DNA of 9,284 bases from a bacterium (lineage in GTDB: Bacteria; Spirochaetota; UBA4802; UBA5550), in NCBI GenBank assembly GCA_024224995.1, contig JAAENB010000837.1:1-9284 (forward strand). The letters are read 5' to 3'. A model generated the notes under the pieces. The model was not told the DNA's origin. It saw only the letters and a list, made by a program, of their open reading frames with translations, and searched no databases. The translations under genes and the position numbers were made by a program. Every line of letters starts with the position of its first letter. Positions within the stretch are counted from its first letter, which is position 1. Below are positions 29 to 9,284 of the stretch, in pieces.

Positions 29-116
29 GGCGTAGAAGTATGGGCTCTTTGGGTTGTGAGGACTGTTTGACCGGAGGGAGTTCCGCAGCAATCCAAAGAG
101 CCCATGCTTCTACGCC
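29..116 (+). repeat. Long hairpin repeat A1 (variable stem, conserved loop)
   Basis: Arms 29-54 and 91-116 pair over 26 positions, and T55-A90 and G56-C89 extend the stem inward. The only non-Watson-Crick pairs are T39-G106 and G53-T92, both G-U wobbles if the plus strand is transcribed. The loop region (about 55-90) begins TGTGAGGACTGTTTGA and ends GAGTTCCGCAGCA. Its reverse complement reappears with few changes in the loops at 7133-7170 and 9227-9262, while the stems differ. A further 30 bp or so downstream (114-146: GCCCGC, CAC, then GTTTCTTAAGAG) is also shared with the flank of the copy at 9205-9284. It lies upstream of the TonB receptor gene and could be the 3' end of a gene to the left of the window. 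There is no T-run after the stem, so a classical intrinsic terminator is not supported. Confidence 0.9.
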
Positions 117-2624: not shown

Positions 2625-4430
2625 ATGAAAAATATCAGCAAATCATTCTTTTTTCTAATTTTATTCTTACTTCTTATTCCCGGCTGCAAGTATAATGAAA
2701 ATTTCCTTGCCGGACTCATTGAACCGGACCGGGAGAGCTCTATTATTACTATCTCTTCTCCGGCAGAGGGGAGTATTTTCAAAAAAGAGAATATTATTGT
2801 TCCCATCACCGGTATCGCCGATGATAATATTGAACTCTCGGAAGTTTCGGTAGCTATCGATAACGGCAGTTTTTCTCCGGCAAGGGGAAAAGACAATTGG
2901 CTCTATAATATCAACACTGATGAGTTAGCATATGGAAGACATACGGTAATTGCAAAAGCAACTGATCTTTACGGGAATACTTCTTACGCTCAAACGTTTA
3001 TTGTTATTACCTATGATTCAAATCCTGATATTAACAGTACCATCCCGGCTCACAAGGAAGCCAATGTTCCCCTAAACCAGGAAATTTCCATACTATTCAC
3101 CAATGATATGGAAGCCGATTCAATTAATGACAACACTTTTATAGTAGAAGATTCGGAAAGTAATACTATGAGCGGGGAAATTTCTTATTACCCCAATGAA
3201 AAAAAAGCGGTCTTTCGAAATAACGAAGATTGGATTATTGATACCACCTATACGGTTACGGTAACAACAGGAGCAAAAGATTTTGTATGGAATTTTTTTA
3301 CGTCCGATTACTCCTTTACTTTTTATACCCATGCCGAAATTCCGGTAGAACCGGTAAGCGTTACGGGAGTGGGCTTAAATAAATCATCAACGAGCCTCAC
3401 TGAAAATGATTCCGAGCAGCTCACCGCGACAATATTCCCCGAAGGCGCTACGAATAAGAATGTTACCTGGTCATCAACTGACGGGACGAAGGCATCAGTA
3501 TCTTCAACAGGACTTGTCAAGGCAATTGCCCAGGGCAGCGCCACGATTCGTGCCACGACTGAAGACGGCGGGCATGTTGCTAATTGCGTAGTTACGGTAA
3601 ACAACAACACCACCTCTTTAATCGTTTTCGCCTCAGATCGTGATGATAGATATGAATATGAGATATATGTAATGAATACTGATGGCTCTAATCAAAAAAG
3701 GCTGACTGATACTGATAGTAATGATTGGTATCCATCCTGGTCGCCTGACGGTTCTCAAATCGTATTCACTTCAAAACGTGATGGTGGTTATGGCGAGATA
3801 TATGTAATGAATGTTGATGGGTCTAATCCAACAAGGTTAACTGATAATAATGTTATGGACAGGAGCCCATCCTGGTCACCTGACGGTTCTCAAATCGCGT
3901 TCCATTCAGGTTCTTTTACTGAATTTGAGATATACGTAATGGATACTGATGGGGAGAATCGAACAAGCATCACTAATAGTTCCGGCGATGACAGCTTCCC
4001 ATGCTGGTCACCTGATGGGTCTCAAATCGCATTCCAGTCAAAACGTGATGGTAATTATGAGATATATGTAATGAATGCGAATGGGTCTAATCAAACAAAT
4101 ATAACCAACAATTCTGATGGCAATGATTGCTGCCCATCCTGGTCTCCTGATGGGTCTCAAATCGCATTCCAGTCAAATCGTGATGGTATTGATGAGGTAT
4201 ATGTAATGGATGCTGATGGGTCTAACCAAAGAAATATAACCAACGATCCTGTTCGTGGTGGTTACGGACCATCCTGGTCTCCTGGTGGTTCTCAAATCGC
4301 ATTCACCTCAAATCGTGGTTTTGGTGATGAGATATATGTAATGAATGCTGATGGGTCCAATCAAACAAACGTAACTAATAATTCCGGTACTGATTACGAA
4401 GCATCCTGGTCTCCATTTATCGTAGAATAA
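2625..4430 (+). CDS. Multidomain lipoprotein: Ig-like domains plus six-repeat PD40 (TolB-like) propeller
   Basis: A 601-residue lipoprotein. MKNISKSFFFLILFLLLIPGC is a lipoprotein signal peptide with the acylated Cys at 21. In order follow an Ig-like beta-sandwich (about 38-130), a Big_5-type domain (about 132-238, with PLNQEISILFTNDME), a Big_2-type domain (about 243-325, with TWSSTDGTKASVSSTGLVKAI) and a C-terminal propeller (about 331-601). The propeller has six copies of a 44-45-residue PD40 repeat, each with E(I/V)YVM(N/D)..G and SWSPDGSQIAF. Ig-like stalks commonly hold a functional head away from the membrane, and TolB-type propellers bind proteins or glycans, so an adhesive or binding role is inferred; there is no sign of an enzyme. 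The start is fixed by AAGGA at 2614-2618, 6 nt before the ATG. The last repeat ends in SWSPFIVE, so the sixth blade may close with the first strand, as in circularised propellers. Confidence 0.9.
   Translation: MKNISKSFFFLILFLLLIPGCKYNENFLAGLIEPDRESSIITISSPAEGSIFKKENIIVPITGIADDNIELSEVSVAIDNGSFSPARGKDNWLYNINTDELAYGRHTVIAKATDLYGNTSYAQTFIVITYDSNPDINSTIPAHKEANVPLNQEISILFTNDMEADSINDNTFIVEDSESNTMSGEISYYPNEKKAVFRNNEDWIIDTTYTVTVTTGAKDFVWNFFTSDYSFTFYTHAEIPVEPVSVTGVGLNKSSTSLTENDSEQLTATIFPEGATNKNVTWSSTDGTKASVSSTGLVKAIAQGSATIRATTEDGGHVANCVVTVNNNTTSLIVFASDRDDRYEYEIYVMNTDGSNQKRLTDTDSNDWYPSWSPDGSQIVFTSKRDGGYGEIYVMNVDGSNPTRLTDNNVMDRSPSWSPDGSQIAFHSGSFTEFEIYVMDTDGENRTSITNSSGDDSFPCWSPDGSQIAFQSKRDGNYEIYVMNANGSNQTNITNNSDGNDCCPSWSPDGSQIAFQSNRDGIDEVYVMDADGSNQRNITNDPVRGGYGPSWSPGGSQIAFTSNRGFGDEIYVMNADGSNQTNVTNNSGTDYEASWSPFIVE
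3738..4409 (+). repeat. Intragenic tandem repeat of 132-135 bp encoding PD40 blades
   Basis: The SWSP codons recur with TGG at 3738, 3873, 4005, 4140, 4275 and 4407, giving spacings of 135, 132, 135, 135 and 132 bp. DNA blocks such as GGTCTCAAATCGCATTCCAG and GAGATATATGTAATGAATG are nearly identical between units, including third codon positions. This points to recent tandem duplication or gene conversion and not only to protein-level selection. Confidence 0.88.
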
Positions 4431-5711: not shown

Positions 5712-5787
5712 AAACAGGGCTGGTTTCCGGGAAGAGACGTTGCAGTGCAGCGTCTTTACGGGCCTGTTTCCGAAGATATTTCCCGGG
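5699..5787 (+). repeat. Interspersed repeat B, copy 1
   Basis: About 89 bp, matching 8954-9040 in the same orientation. It begins AGAAAC, CTTTTTAAACAGG and ends CCGAAGAT to CCCGGG. Its centre is the palindrome AGACGTTGCA-G-TGCAGCGTCT (5735-5755), with one T-G wobble at 5740/5750. An outer stem, AAACAGG (5712-5718) with CCTGTTT (5763-5769), can enclose it. The central AGACGTTGCA palindrome resembles short multicopy palindromes I remember from intergenic DNA of unrelated bacteria; that is recollection only. No protein frame is conserved between the copies. Confidence 0.85.
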
Positions 5788-5850: not shown

Positions 5851-5864
5851 ACGTACCGAATACC

Positions 5865-5972
5865 CTCGCAGGGGCCGCACCCCTCGCAGGGGCCGCACCC
5901 CTCGCAGGGGCCGCACCCCTCGCAGGGGCCGCACCCCTCGCAGGGGTCGTACCCCTCGCAGGGGTCGCACCC
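5865..5972. repeat. Six tandem copies of an 18-bp GC-rich unit
   Basis: Units of CTCGCAGGGGCCGCACCC start at 5865, 5883, 5901, 5919, 5937 and 5955. The first four are identical; the fifth reads GGGGTCGTACCC and the sixth GGGGTCGCACCC in the second half. Each unit contains a short palindrome, AGGGG-CCGCA-CCCCT. It is a minisatellite lying between two inverted pieces of repeat B. The 18-bp period is a multiple of three, so several frames stay open, but none has a ribosome-binding site or a plausible protein. Confidence 0.95.
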
Positions 5973-5976
5973 CTTT

Positions 5977-6003
5977 CCCGGAGCATCTTCGTAAAACAGA
6001 CCC
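5977..6003 (-). repeat. Diverged partial copy of repeat B, inverted
   Basis: The reverse complement of this stretch (GGGTCTGTTTT, then ACGAAGAT, CCGGG) aligns with the distal end of repeat B at 5760-5787 (GGGCCTGTTT, CCGAAGAT, CCCGGG), about 21 of 27 positions allowing small gaps. The two pieces face each other across the palindrome and tandem array, so that island is bounded by an imperfect inverted repeat. Confidence 0.5.
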
Positions 6004-6088: not shown

Positions 6089-6994
6089 TTACGGTGTATC
6101 CGCGAAAAAGGCAAAAACCGCCTCCAGCTCCGAATCCCAGTACGTGAAATCATGTCCTGCCTTTTCAGGCGCGTTAAAGCAGACCCGCAGCGACGGATAC
6201 TTCTTTTTCAAGGTCTTATAAAACGAGTCACTTTGCGAGAAAGGTACCACTTTGTCCTTTTTCCCGTGGCCTATGTATATCGGCATGAGCCATTCTCCCT
6301 GTTCCGCCCGTACTTCGGGATTATCCGTGGAAGTCCAGCGCTCCCTGCATGTGTTATACGGACCATAGACCGCTGCCATGAGCCTGTCGGCAGGCAGTTT
6401 ATCCTGGTTATAGTCTCCGGAAAGGGCTGCTCCTGCAGTAAAGAGTCCCGGGTTTTCAAGGGAAACCAGGGCTGCGCCCCTGCCCCCGGTAGAAAGCCCC
6501 AGTAAAAAATTTCGTTTTTTAGGGAGGAAAAGTCCGTAGGTATTCTTAAGCCGCCGCAGCAGGATCTTCTTTATCCACATTCCGCCGGGCATGGCTGCCC
6601 ATTTTCGTGTTGTCTCAGGAAAATATTTCGACTCATAAATCGTGGTGTTCATATCGGGGAATACAACCCGGTATCCTTCTTTTTCCGCGTATGTTAAAAG
6701 CCCGGTCTCTTTATGCCACCTGGTGCGGGAAAACTTCCAGCCCGGCAGCACCAGGAGATCCCCTTTTACAGTGGAAGCCCGGGGCACGAAGATATCAACC
6801 TTAATCTTCTTCCCGGTTCCGGCCGCGCTCCCGGGCAGTTCAATAGTGCTCATCCCCGCTTTCAGAGCCGTATACTTCTTTATATTCTTTATATTCTTGC
6901 CCATATCCCTGCTGCCGGAAGCCTTCTCTTTTCCGCAGGCAGTAATGCTTAATAAACATATCACAATAAAAGAAAAAACCGGGGCCTTTTTCAT
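6089..6994 (-). CDS. Lipid-anchored alpha/beta-hydrolase (putative serine esterase)
   Basis: A 301-residue protein from the ATG at 6994. This start is chosen because GGAG sits 8 nt upstream and MKKAPVFSFIVICLLSITAC is a complete lipoprotein signal (Cys20); the longer frame to 7069 adds 25 residues in front of it. The mature part has the alpha/beta-hydrolase layout: LLVLPGW (80-86) near the oxyanion hole, the nucleophile elbow G-L-S168-T-G, a probable acid Asp247 in GHGKKDKVVP, and His281 in AGHDFTYW, giving a Ser-Asp-His triad in the right order. Overall form resembles the esterase D/putative-esterase family, which hydrolyses ester bonds of small or polysaccharide-linked acyl groups; the substrate is unknown. 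It probably acts outside the cytoplasm, tethered to a membrane. It is transcribed alone or after the propeller lipoprotein upstream, from which hairpin A2 separates it. Confidence 0.9.
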   Translation of the reverse strand: MKKAPVFSFIVICLLSITACGKEKASGSRDMGKNIKNIKKYTALKAGMSTIELPGSAAGTGKKIKVDIFVPRASTVKGDLLVLPGWKFSRTRWHKETGLLTYAEKEGYRVVFPDMNTTIYESKYFPETTRKWAAMPGGMWIKKILLRRLKNTYGLFLPKKRNFLLGLSTGGRGAALVSLENPGLFTAGAALSGDYNQDKLPADRLMAAVYGPYNTCRERWTSTDNPEVRAEQGEWLMPIYIGHGKKDKVVPFSQSDSFYKTLKKKYPSLRVCFNAPEKAGHDFTYWDSELEAVFAFFADTP

Positions 6995-7093: not shown

Positions 7094-7209
7094 TCCGGAA
7101 TGAAATCTATGCGGGGAGTAATACCTCGGCAGAACGTTCGGAACTCGCTCCGCTCAGACAGCCTCACAACCTGCCGAGGCATCACTCCCCGCATAGATTT
7201 CATTCCGAA
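7094..7209 (-). repeat. Long hairpin repeat A2 (variable stem, conserved loop)
   Basis: Arms 7094-7132 and 7171-7209 pair over 39 bp with three departures, 7095/7208, 7120/7183 and 7123/7180. All three are C-A or A-C on the plus strand and hence G-U wobbles in minus-strand RNA. The 38-nt loop (7133-7170), read on the minus strand, carries TTGTGAGG, CTGTCTGAG and GAGTTCCG, matching the loops of A1 and A3. The stem starts 17 nt after the stop codon of the minus-strand propeller lipoprotein, so it probably forms the 3' end of that mRNA or lies between the two minus-strand genes. The region after the stem is AT-rich (TAATAAAAAATAAT) without a true T-run. Confidence 0.92.
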
Positions 7210-8953: not shown

Positions 8954-9040
8954 AGAAAGTTCTTTTTAAACAGGGGGTCTGTTTTGAGACGTTGCAGTGC
9001 AACGTCTTTACGGGCTTGTTTCCGAAGATTTTATCCCGGG
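8954..9040 (+). repeat. Interspersed repeat B, copy 2
   Basis: Same element and orientation as 5699-5787: AGAAAG, TCTTTTTAAACAGG, central palindrome AGACGTTGCA-G-TGCAACGTCT (8987-9007, perfect), then TTTACGGGC, TTGTTTCCGAAGAT and CCCGGG. The outer stem AAACAGG (8968-8974) with CTTGTTT (9015-9021) has one G-T wobble. In both copies the imperfect pair is G-U compatible on the plus strand. No plus-strand gene is next to this copy. Confidence 0.85.
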
Positions 9041-9170: not shown

Positions 9171-9284
9171 CTCTCAAGAAACTAAATTGTGCAAGTGAGC
9201 GGGCCTGGAAGCATCCCTCTTCTAAATGCTGCGGAACTCGCTCCGCTCAAACAGTCCTCACATTTAGAAGAGGGATACTTCCAG
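9171..9284 (-). repeat. Long hairpin repeat A3 with conserved flank, reaching the window edge
   Basis: Arms 9205-9226 and 9263-9284 pair over 22 bp with a single departure, C9212/A9277, a G-U wobble in minus-strand RNA; T9227-A9262 and G9228-C9261 extend the stem. The loop carries the same core as A1 and A2 (on the minus strand TGTGAGGACTGTTTGAG to GAGTTCCGCAGCA). The flank 9171-9204, read on the minus strand, matches 114-146 at about three quarters of positions (GCCCGC, CAC, GCA, GTTTCTT, AGAG). The right arm reaches the last base, so the element may continue past the window. Confidence 0.9.

Follow-up and report, generated by a model that had tools for sequence, protein, structure and literature searches.

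Dispersed hairpin repeats with a common apical domain in several bacterial phyla: candidates for a mobile element coupled to replication

We identified three hairpins in the window (the whole stretch of 9,284 nucleotides analysed) that carry one apical domain, GYGAGGACTGTYTGAGCGNAGCGAGTTCCGCARC, on differing stems, and the same apex recurs in a repeat family that is scattered, patchily, across several bacterial phyla. Most likely, these hairpin repeats move as DNA, in a manner coupled to replication: the presence and absence of copies at given sites, swaps of the apex, and a bias of orientation relative to the replication fork favour a replication-coupled DNA element, mobile or fork-polar, rather than a conserved cis-acting RNA. 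The original prediction had listed a mobile element among the possible functions; the RNA functions listed beside it are now the main rival. In full, we read the hairpins as belonging to a new family of dispersed mobile elements, probably non-autonomous, which fold as single-stranded DNA at the fork, are recognised at their apex, and have their arms replaced jointly; we assign this a probability of roughly 45%.

Three hairpins and a structured apex

H1 (29-116, sense strand +), located by inverted-repeat search, consists of a 5′ arm at 29-56 that pairs with a 3′ arm at 89-116 (28 nt, 93%) and an apical domain, GTGAGGACTGTTTGACCGGAGGGAGTTCCGCAGC, at 56-89, with a mini-hairpin, CC-GGA-GG, at 71-77, which is a compensated form of GC-GNA-GC; all of these are on the + strand. 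H2 (7094-7209, sense strand −; arms 7096-7132 and 7171-7207, 37 nt at 95% in the repeat search) represents a second subfamily, with an apical domain at 7136-7167 (−) that is one base shorter and reads GAGG-CTG, and with the mini-hairpin GC-GGA-GC at 7147-7153 (−); its relatives stand at both ends of L007 (JAAEMX010000089.1), a 3-kb contig in a Lentisphaerae MAG. H3 (9205-9284, sense strand −; arms 9205-9228 and 9261-9284, 24 nt at 96%; apical domain 9228-9261 and mini-hairpin GC-GGA-GC 9240-9246, both −) is cut by the window end, and its whole form is found in L007, at 99% identity over 114 nt. L007 holds the sole match to a looser apex pattern in its 4.3-Mb genome and, since the identity of its repeats with the spirochaete window reaches 99%, we suspect it to be a misbinned spirochaete contig; the spirochaete evidence consists of the three window copies and L007.

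The three hairpins are real and lie where the original prediction had placed them, with the same apical domain on different stems, although their arms (28, 37, and 24 nt) differ slightly in length from the stems of 24, 39, and 22 bp given there, and H3 exceeds the window. When read on the strand that carries the G-T mismatches, the apex GTGAGGACTGTTTGAGCGGAGCGAGTTCCGCAGC occurs in all three with small changes. The stems had been called unrelated, which does not hold for H1 and the H3 type: the repeat search of the window paired H1 with H3 as an inverted repeat of 46 nt that runs through the loop, H1 and its flanks (3-148, +) share 78% identity over 147 nt with the H3-type copy of L007, and the two stems have GAAGTAT and CTCTT in common, with compensated changes between them (CCC/GGG swapped for GGG/CCC). 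An outer inverted repeat of L007, GAAACTAAAT/ATTTAGTTTC, recognised by eye, is degenerate around H1.

The genes of the window encode a TonB receptor, a protein with PD40 and bacterial-Ig domains, a protein without Pfam match, an esterase-like protein (6092-6994, reverse strand; closest named relatives in Spirochaetota, among the best 120 of 453 matches), and an SBBP-repeat protein. From the kinship of this one esterase-like protein, we take the window to come from an uncultivated spirochaete. The window also holds other repeats: a second dispersed palindromic repeat, GAGACGTTGCAGTGCARCGTCTTTACGGGCYTGTTTCCGAAGAT, in two copies that are 89% identical (5734-5787 and 8986-9039), each preceded by CTTTTTAAACAGGG and distinct from the apex hairpin family; an intergenic head-to-tail array of an 18-bp unit, CCCTCGCAGGGGCCGCAC (5863-5988); and imperfect repeats of 132-135 bp within the PD40 beta-propeller gene (3653-4388).

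The shared loop of the original prediction was recovered, but this loop is itself structured, with covarying pairs. The apex consists of closing pairs (G-C and Y-R), a GAG/GCA internal loop, a GGAC/GTTCC helix, and a GC-GNA-GC mini-hairpin. We aligned 75 distinct domains: 27 from the Iodobacter group (see below), 4 from other members of its family, 12 from BP7, 17 from the Parcubacteria order, 11 from Bacteroidales, and 4 from the window and L007. Eight predicted pairs were tested; 91.1% of their cells are paired, and both-sided changes occur in five of the eight pairs (32 cells). Five measures of covariation were computed: none of 500 shuffles reaches the real value on any of them, and the real value exceeds that of every slide on all five. 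The closing Y-R pair, for example, varies among C-G, T-A, and G-C; one pair of the GGAC/GTTCC helix changes from G-C to C-G in three sequences of Iodobacter's family; and in the mini-hairpin the first pair is C-G in H1 and A-T in L189, and the second pair T-A in L190, all compensated. The mini-hairpin loop is GNA in 68 of the 75 domains (N being A in 50, T in 8, G in 5, and C in 5) and otherwise AAA (5), ATA (1), or CGC (1). Exceptions to the pairing are found at 13-38 and 15-36, which do not pair in 16 of 75 rows (chiefly the TTTGATGC form and H2-type domains), and at 9-43, which does not pair in 15 of 75. The letters of TGTYTGA and GAG/GCA, outside the mini-hairpin, are conserved likewise. 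An RNAalifold consensus of the whole Iodobacter-type element (40 pairs, 7 with both-sided changes) was a poor compromise and was set aside. In PMC4686876, GNA-loop mini-hairpins closed by G-C pairs are described, as DNA, as unusually stable and nuclease-resistant; this stability favours folded DNA here, short of proof.

Scattered occurrence and drifting arms

We searched a collection of species genomes with the 29-30-nt apex pattern, a search with the loop core having been proposed along with the original prediction, and found 17 stretches in six other genomes: Bacteroidales SIG122, BP7.bin63, Parcubacteria GWC2_42_12, Lentisphaerae Bse_17, E14 bin.105 (which appeared within the order of the Parcubacteria genome), and Iodobacter 337R. 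Most of the matches cap stems, and the arms differ; a domain of this length in 17 stretches, mostly on stems, excludes chance. With the looser pattern, each seed genome contained between one and nine matches, and the reversed-pattern controls had zero matches in all genomes searched. The occurrence is patchy: 1 of 249 Pseudomonadota genomes matched, and this was the seed itself; with the seeds included, matches were found in 13 of 43 genomes of the Iodobacter seed's family (nine with 8-24 matches, four with 1-2), in 6 of 8 genomes of the Bacteroidales seed's family, and in 5 of 78 of the Parcubacteria seed's order; and 1 of 4 genomes matched in the family of BP7.bin63. The apex had no match in phages, one strict apex pattern had none in viral contigs, and no plasmid carried the H3 form; the Iodobacter form was found in two plasmid records, one of them an Iodobacter plasmid. 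In Rfam 15, at gathering score, the window and ten loci had no match except tRNAs, and six loci searched at E values up to 0.5 gave two matches, far below the gathering scores. Our literature search returned no relevant paper for the motif strings or for the spurious peptide FERSEF. As far as these Rfam and literature checks reach, dispersed hairpin repeats with apical identity are undescribed.

In Parcubacteria GWC2_42_12, one or both ends of the elements at five loci (L020, L026, L036, L041, and L045) show, by eye, GGACTTACGC or a similar sequence, and some copies have one arm truncated or missing, which gives them a MITE-like appearance.

A loop-proximal stem is present, by a set cut-off, in 41 of 55 motif copies; of the 14 copies below the cut-off, 11 are from Bacteroidales, where the stems are shorter or offset on folding (11 of 12 Bacteroidales copies and 2 of 9 in genome G003 missed it). 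All 13 copies of BP7.bin63 have arms, twelve with 40-48 Watson-Crick pairs and one cut by a contig end, and the 564 aligned stem positions include 2 G-T, 1 A-C, 6 other mismatches, and 4 gaps. The two arms of one BP7.bin63 copy are 95.7% alike, as against 67.5% between copies and 56.0% after shuffling; so the arms are homologous between copies, much drifted, and near-perfectly paired within each copy. These figures bear out the claim that the middle is kept while the arms vary in pairs, and they contradict the suggestion that arms are copied from each site, since residual homology (68% against 56%) persists between the arms of different copies. The gap is narrower in the Parcubacteria order (83.6% within against 68.7% between copies), and for the A type of the window, with two copies only, the values are 93.8% and 62.5%.

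The main rival, which we consider somewhat unlikely, is a structured RNA element (a 3′-end, stability, or protein-binding element, or a small RNA), in which the apex would be a protein or RNA site and the stems would be selected on the transcript. The covarying apex pairs fit it, and so does the polarity of the wobbles, on which the original prediction had relied: read on the loop-defined strand, the stems of the window and L007 contain 8 G-T, no A-C, and 1 other non-Watson-Crick position, and the window set together with seven other sets contains 21 G-T and 7 A-C (every mismatch was penalised equally, and the copies are not independent). The polarity is thus clear in the window but weaker elsewhere (13:7 without the window set), and in genome G358 it is opposite (4 G-T to 6 A-C). 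The chance of 1 in 64 quoted for it was too strong, since H1 and the H3 type are related and some wobbles were inherited jointly. Moreover, G-T is a better mismatch than A-C in folded single-stranded DNA too, so wobble polarity does not separate the two, and with 13:7 elsewhere and a fork bias that points to DNA the statement that the stems are maintained as RNA helices is unsupported as it stood. An RNA helix under selection is expected to keep more G-U intermediates; against this expectation, which is general knowledge, G-T occupies only 21 of 1,262 aligned stem positions over all sets. Few such intermediates and near-perfect pairing would fit joint replacement of both arms better than selection on an RNA helix. 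The patchy and polymorphic occurrence and the lack of an Rfam match at gathering score, for the window and ten loci, likewise count against an RNA element.

Orientation and turnover of copies

We refer to the Iodobacter MAG (G006) and eight genomes of its family (G282-G289) as the Iodobacter group, as they have elements and flanking genes in common; from this we infer that G282-G289 are Iodobacter. The element of this group is about 230 nt long, with the apex placed on a scaffold of several hairpins, so that there is structure outside the main hairpin too. An 11.9-kb query containing multiple elements gave between 81 and 101 BLAST matches in each of eight of these nine genomes, flanks included, and the scaffold pattern identified 48 copies in G282 and 59 in G285. 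In most group copies the terminal sequence is GTGCCGAAGGCAC, after which come runs of A and of T. Most elements at loci L100-L139 were also seen to end in GTGCCGAAGGCACTAAAAA, then a TCTTTTTGACTTTG-like stretch.

GC skew, sampled at 20 points each in G285 and G282, showed clean sign switches, and elements near the switch points (6 in G285, 4 in G282) were left out. In these two related genomes, the only ones in which the fork was mapped, the sense strand of 39 of 53 scaffold copies in G285 (p 0.0008) and of 35 of 44 in G282 (p 0.0001), or 74 of 97 together, points against the fork. Split by the orientation of the flanking genes, the strict-apex copies (all copies of the two genomes) run against and with the fork at 11:4 in the ++ context, 7:2 in +-, and 9:1 in --, and the bias reverses in -+ (0 against, 3 with). 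By a cruder test on local skew in six genomes, the sense strand coincides with the locally C-rich strand in 55 of 73 copies.

Orientation relative to genes was counted over distinct copies, with ORFs called, here as in the split by flanking genes above, by a longest-ORF rule and no gene finder. Of 40 copies in the Iodobacter group, 27 follow a gene in sense, and only 2 lie in the divergent (-+) context. The RNA element gains from both counts, and from the further hairpins and the common end of most group copies; the structure outside the hairpin and the tendency to trail a sense gene are RNA-like and count against a mobile element. Gene orientation, however, differs between lineages and is reversed outside the Iodobacter group: among copies with a scored upstream gene, this gene is antisense in 10 of 12 in BP7, 17 of 20 in the Parcubacteria order, and 8 of 11 in Bacteroidales. 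The reversal argues against an RNA element, and so does the greater regularity of fork orientation in the genomes in which it was mapped. A strongly biased fork orientation combined with a lineage-dependent gene orientation points towards DNA.

Copies also come or go. At one orthologous site the element is absent in two of six other genomes and present in four, with different arrangements. At four further sites, comprising 20 orthologous intervals, a profile found 11 intervals without match, 1 with a fragment, and 8 with an element (BLAST alone scored two of these 8 as fragments, and the profile scored both as elements). Of the 11 matchless intervals, seven are plainly shorter than in G285, and four contain other sequence of about 230 to 1300 nt and are not plain empty sites. 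Among the 8 elements, so far as they were read, one has the apical motif and five have a different apex on the same scaffold, either GGCCAGGGAGCGAGGCAGCGAGCCAATCCCGCC and its relatives or GGAAAAGGGG...CCTTTTTCGCC. The tip thus differs between orthologous copies. Filled and empty sites both contain AAAAGATCTTTTTGA, which also trails elements elsewhere, so the "empty" sites may be deletions; no target-site duplication was established at the filled and empty site compared. The same scaffold with other apical modules, of the GAGCGAGGCAGCGAG type or the GGAAAAGGGG...CCTTTTTCGCC type, was also noted at L107 (3190-3440), L152, and L233-L237, and at orthologous sites.

Quite unlikely, in our judgement, is a fork-polar chromosomal site, comparable to Chi, to KOPS, or to a site for the primosome or for replication restart, which would serve the host and be spread through conversion and recombination. 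It would account for the strong bias against the fork in two genomes and in three of the four gene contexts, and for 48 and 59 scaffold copies per genome, but the apex pattern has no match in 30 of the 43 genomes sampled from this family, related genomes differ in the copies they carry, and elements of about 230 nt with several hairpins are long for such sites.

Proposed mechanism and relation to known systems

An improbable explanation is that the hairpins are a member of the REP/RAYT (IS200/IS605-like) miniature transposons, which they resemble in being palindromic, dispersed, intergenic, and strand-polar, and whose IS200/IS605 relatives use the lagging-strand template, according to PMC6006769. 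REPs, however, share a tag at the hairpin foot (GTAG or CGTC, in PMC3733652 and PMC6006769), and the hairpins studied here share an apex. We scanned five sets (6, 13, 4, 2, and 2 copies) for GTAG, GGAG, and CGTC near stem feet that were placed approximately, by fixed lengths, with GTGG outside the scan; each tag was found at each foot in at most one copy per set, so none is common. Nor does the REP-type Y1 transposase (PF01797) track with the repeats: it was found in 8 of 14 carriers and in 8 of 15 non-carriers tested, and it is absent from carriers G001, G002, G003, G004, G006, and G283, several of which are fragmented MAGs. Reverse transcriptase (PF00078) does not track either (12 of 17 carriers, 7 of 21 non-carriers), and is absent from carrier G282, the chromosome of which is one contig. 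As an aside, contig C1 of G284 contains fourteen reverse transcriptase frames of 450 aa with equal score, perhaps an expanded group II intron. Highly improbable, finally, is that the tips are alike by chance or convergence: a GCGNAGC mini-hairpin may be favoured by stability alone, but about 29 positions match across phyla, TGTYTGA and GAG/GCA are conserved outside the mini-hairpin, and the reversed-pattern controls were all zero in the genomes searched.

Under the preferred reading of a mobile element coupled to replication, the element would act as a folded single DNA strand exposed at the fork, and its apical domain with the GNA mini-hairpin would be the part recognised by a putative trans-acting enzyme or host factor, whereas the stem would need pairing alone. 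Both arms would be replaced together, either when a conversion tract covers the entire hairpin or when the template is switched at the fork; through such joint replacement, rather than through selection on each base pair, the arms could stay complementary while drifting. Two points weigh against this reading: no mobilising gene was found among the two families compared (PF01797 and PF00078), and the near-identical apex in distant phyla would need lateral transfer. Possible, though doubtful, is the further step that the repeats constitute a mobile element of a new class, namely a hairpin of single-stranded DNA with cross-phylum identity only in its GNA tip, on different stems and scaffolds, with a swappable tip, an orientation of entry set by the fork, and a tip read by a widely transferred putative enzyme. 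The usual grouping of dispersed palindromes goes by their ends; in this family, identity across distant phyla lies in the apex, and the arms are free. The apex thus supplies a definite recognition motif for fishing out the enzyme or host factor, and makes it directly testable which strand folds and whether it does so as DNA or as RNA; through the fork bias, the entry of small hairpin repeats into bacterial chromosomes can be approached quantitatively.

We file the hairpins as dispersed palindromic repeats, not as REP. Like REP elements and REPINs, which PMC3733652, PMC6006769, and PMC3116915 present as hypothetically mobilised by RAYTs, they are short, palindromic, dispersed, and intergenic, with several families per genome. 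Unlike REPs, for which basal stems of 7-20 nt are the rule in PMC6006769, they have stems of up to 48 bp; they conserve the apex and not an unpaired foot tag, and no RAYT gene tracks with them. IS200/IS605 elements (IS608, ISDra2) offer a parallel to the fork-linked strand bias seen in the two mapped genomes, as their relatives act on the lagging-strand template, with strand-specific hairpin recognition and coupling to the fork (PMC6006769), but no TnpA ends or transposase gene were identified here. In addition, the better-folding (sense) strand runs against the fork and its complement is the lagging-strand template, a difference from IS200/IS605 that vanishes if the complement is the active strand.

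The d(GCGNAGC) mini-hairpins of Hirao, Yoshizawa, and colleagues have the two-pair stem and GNA loop found at the apex centre in 68 of 75 domains, and we know of no dispersed repeat family built on them. PMC4686876 covers their chemistry and their use as aptamer tools. Outer inverted repeats were seen by eye (GAAACTAAAT in L007 and GGACTTACGC in Parcubacteria). MITEs, Correia, ERIC, and BOX elements are non-autonomous, dispersed, intergenic repeats able to fold; in MITEs the ends are kept, whereas in our hairpins it is the middle. The double-hairpin elements of chytrid mitochondria, which are regarded as mobile, show compensated stem changes; compared by description (our literature search found no paper on mitochondrial double-hairpin elements), they are alike in hairpins and compensated stems but differ in genome and sequence. 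A gene-cassette array was considered for the Bacteroidales stretch with four copies in 21 kb and rejected; most frames there look, by eye, like ordinary genes. Integron attC sites work as a folded single strand, with R″/R′ boxes (RYYYAAC ... GTTRRRY) at their ends; their stems are variable, as here, but they keep the outer boxes and vary the tip, the reverse of the hairpins described here.
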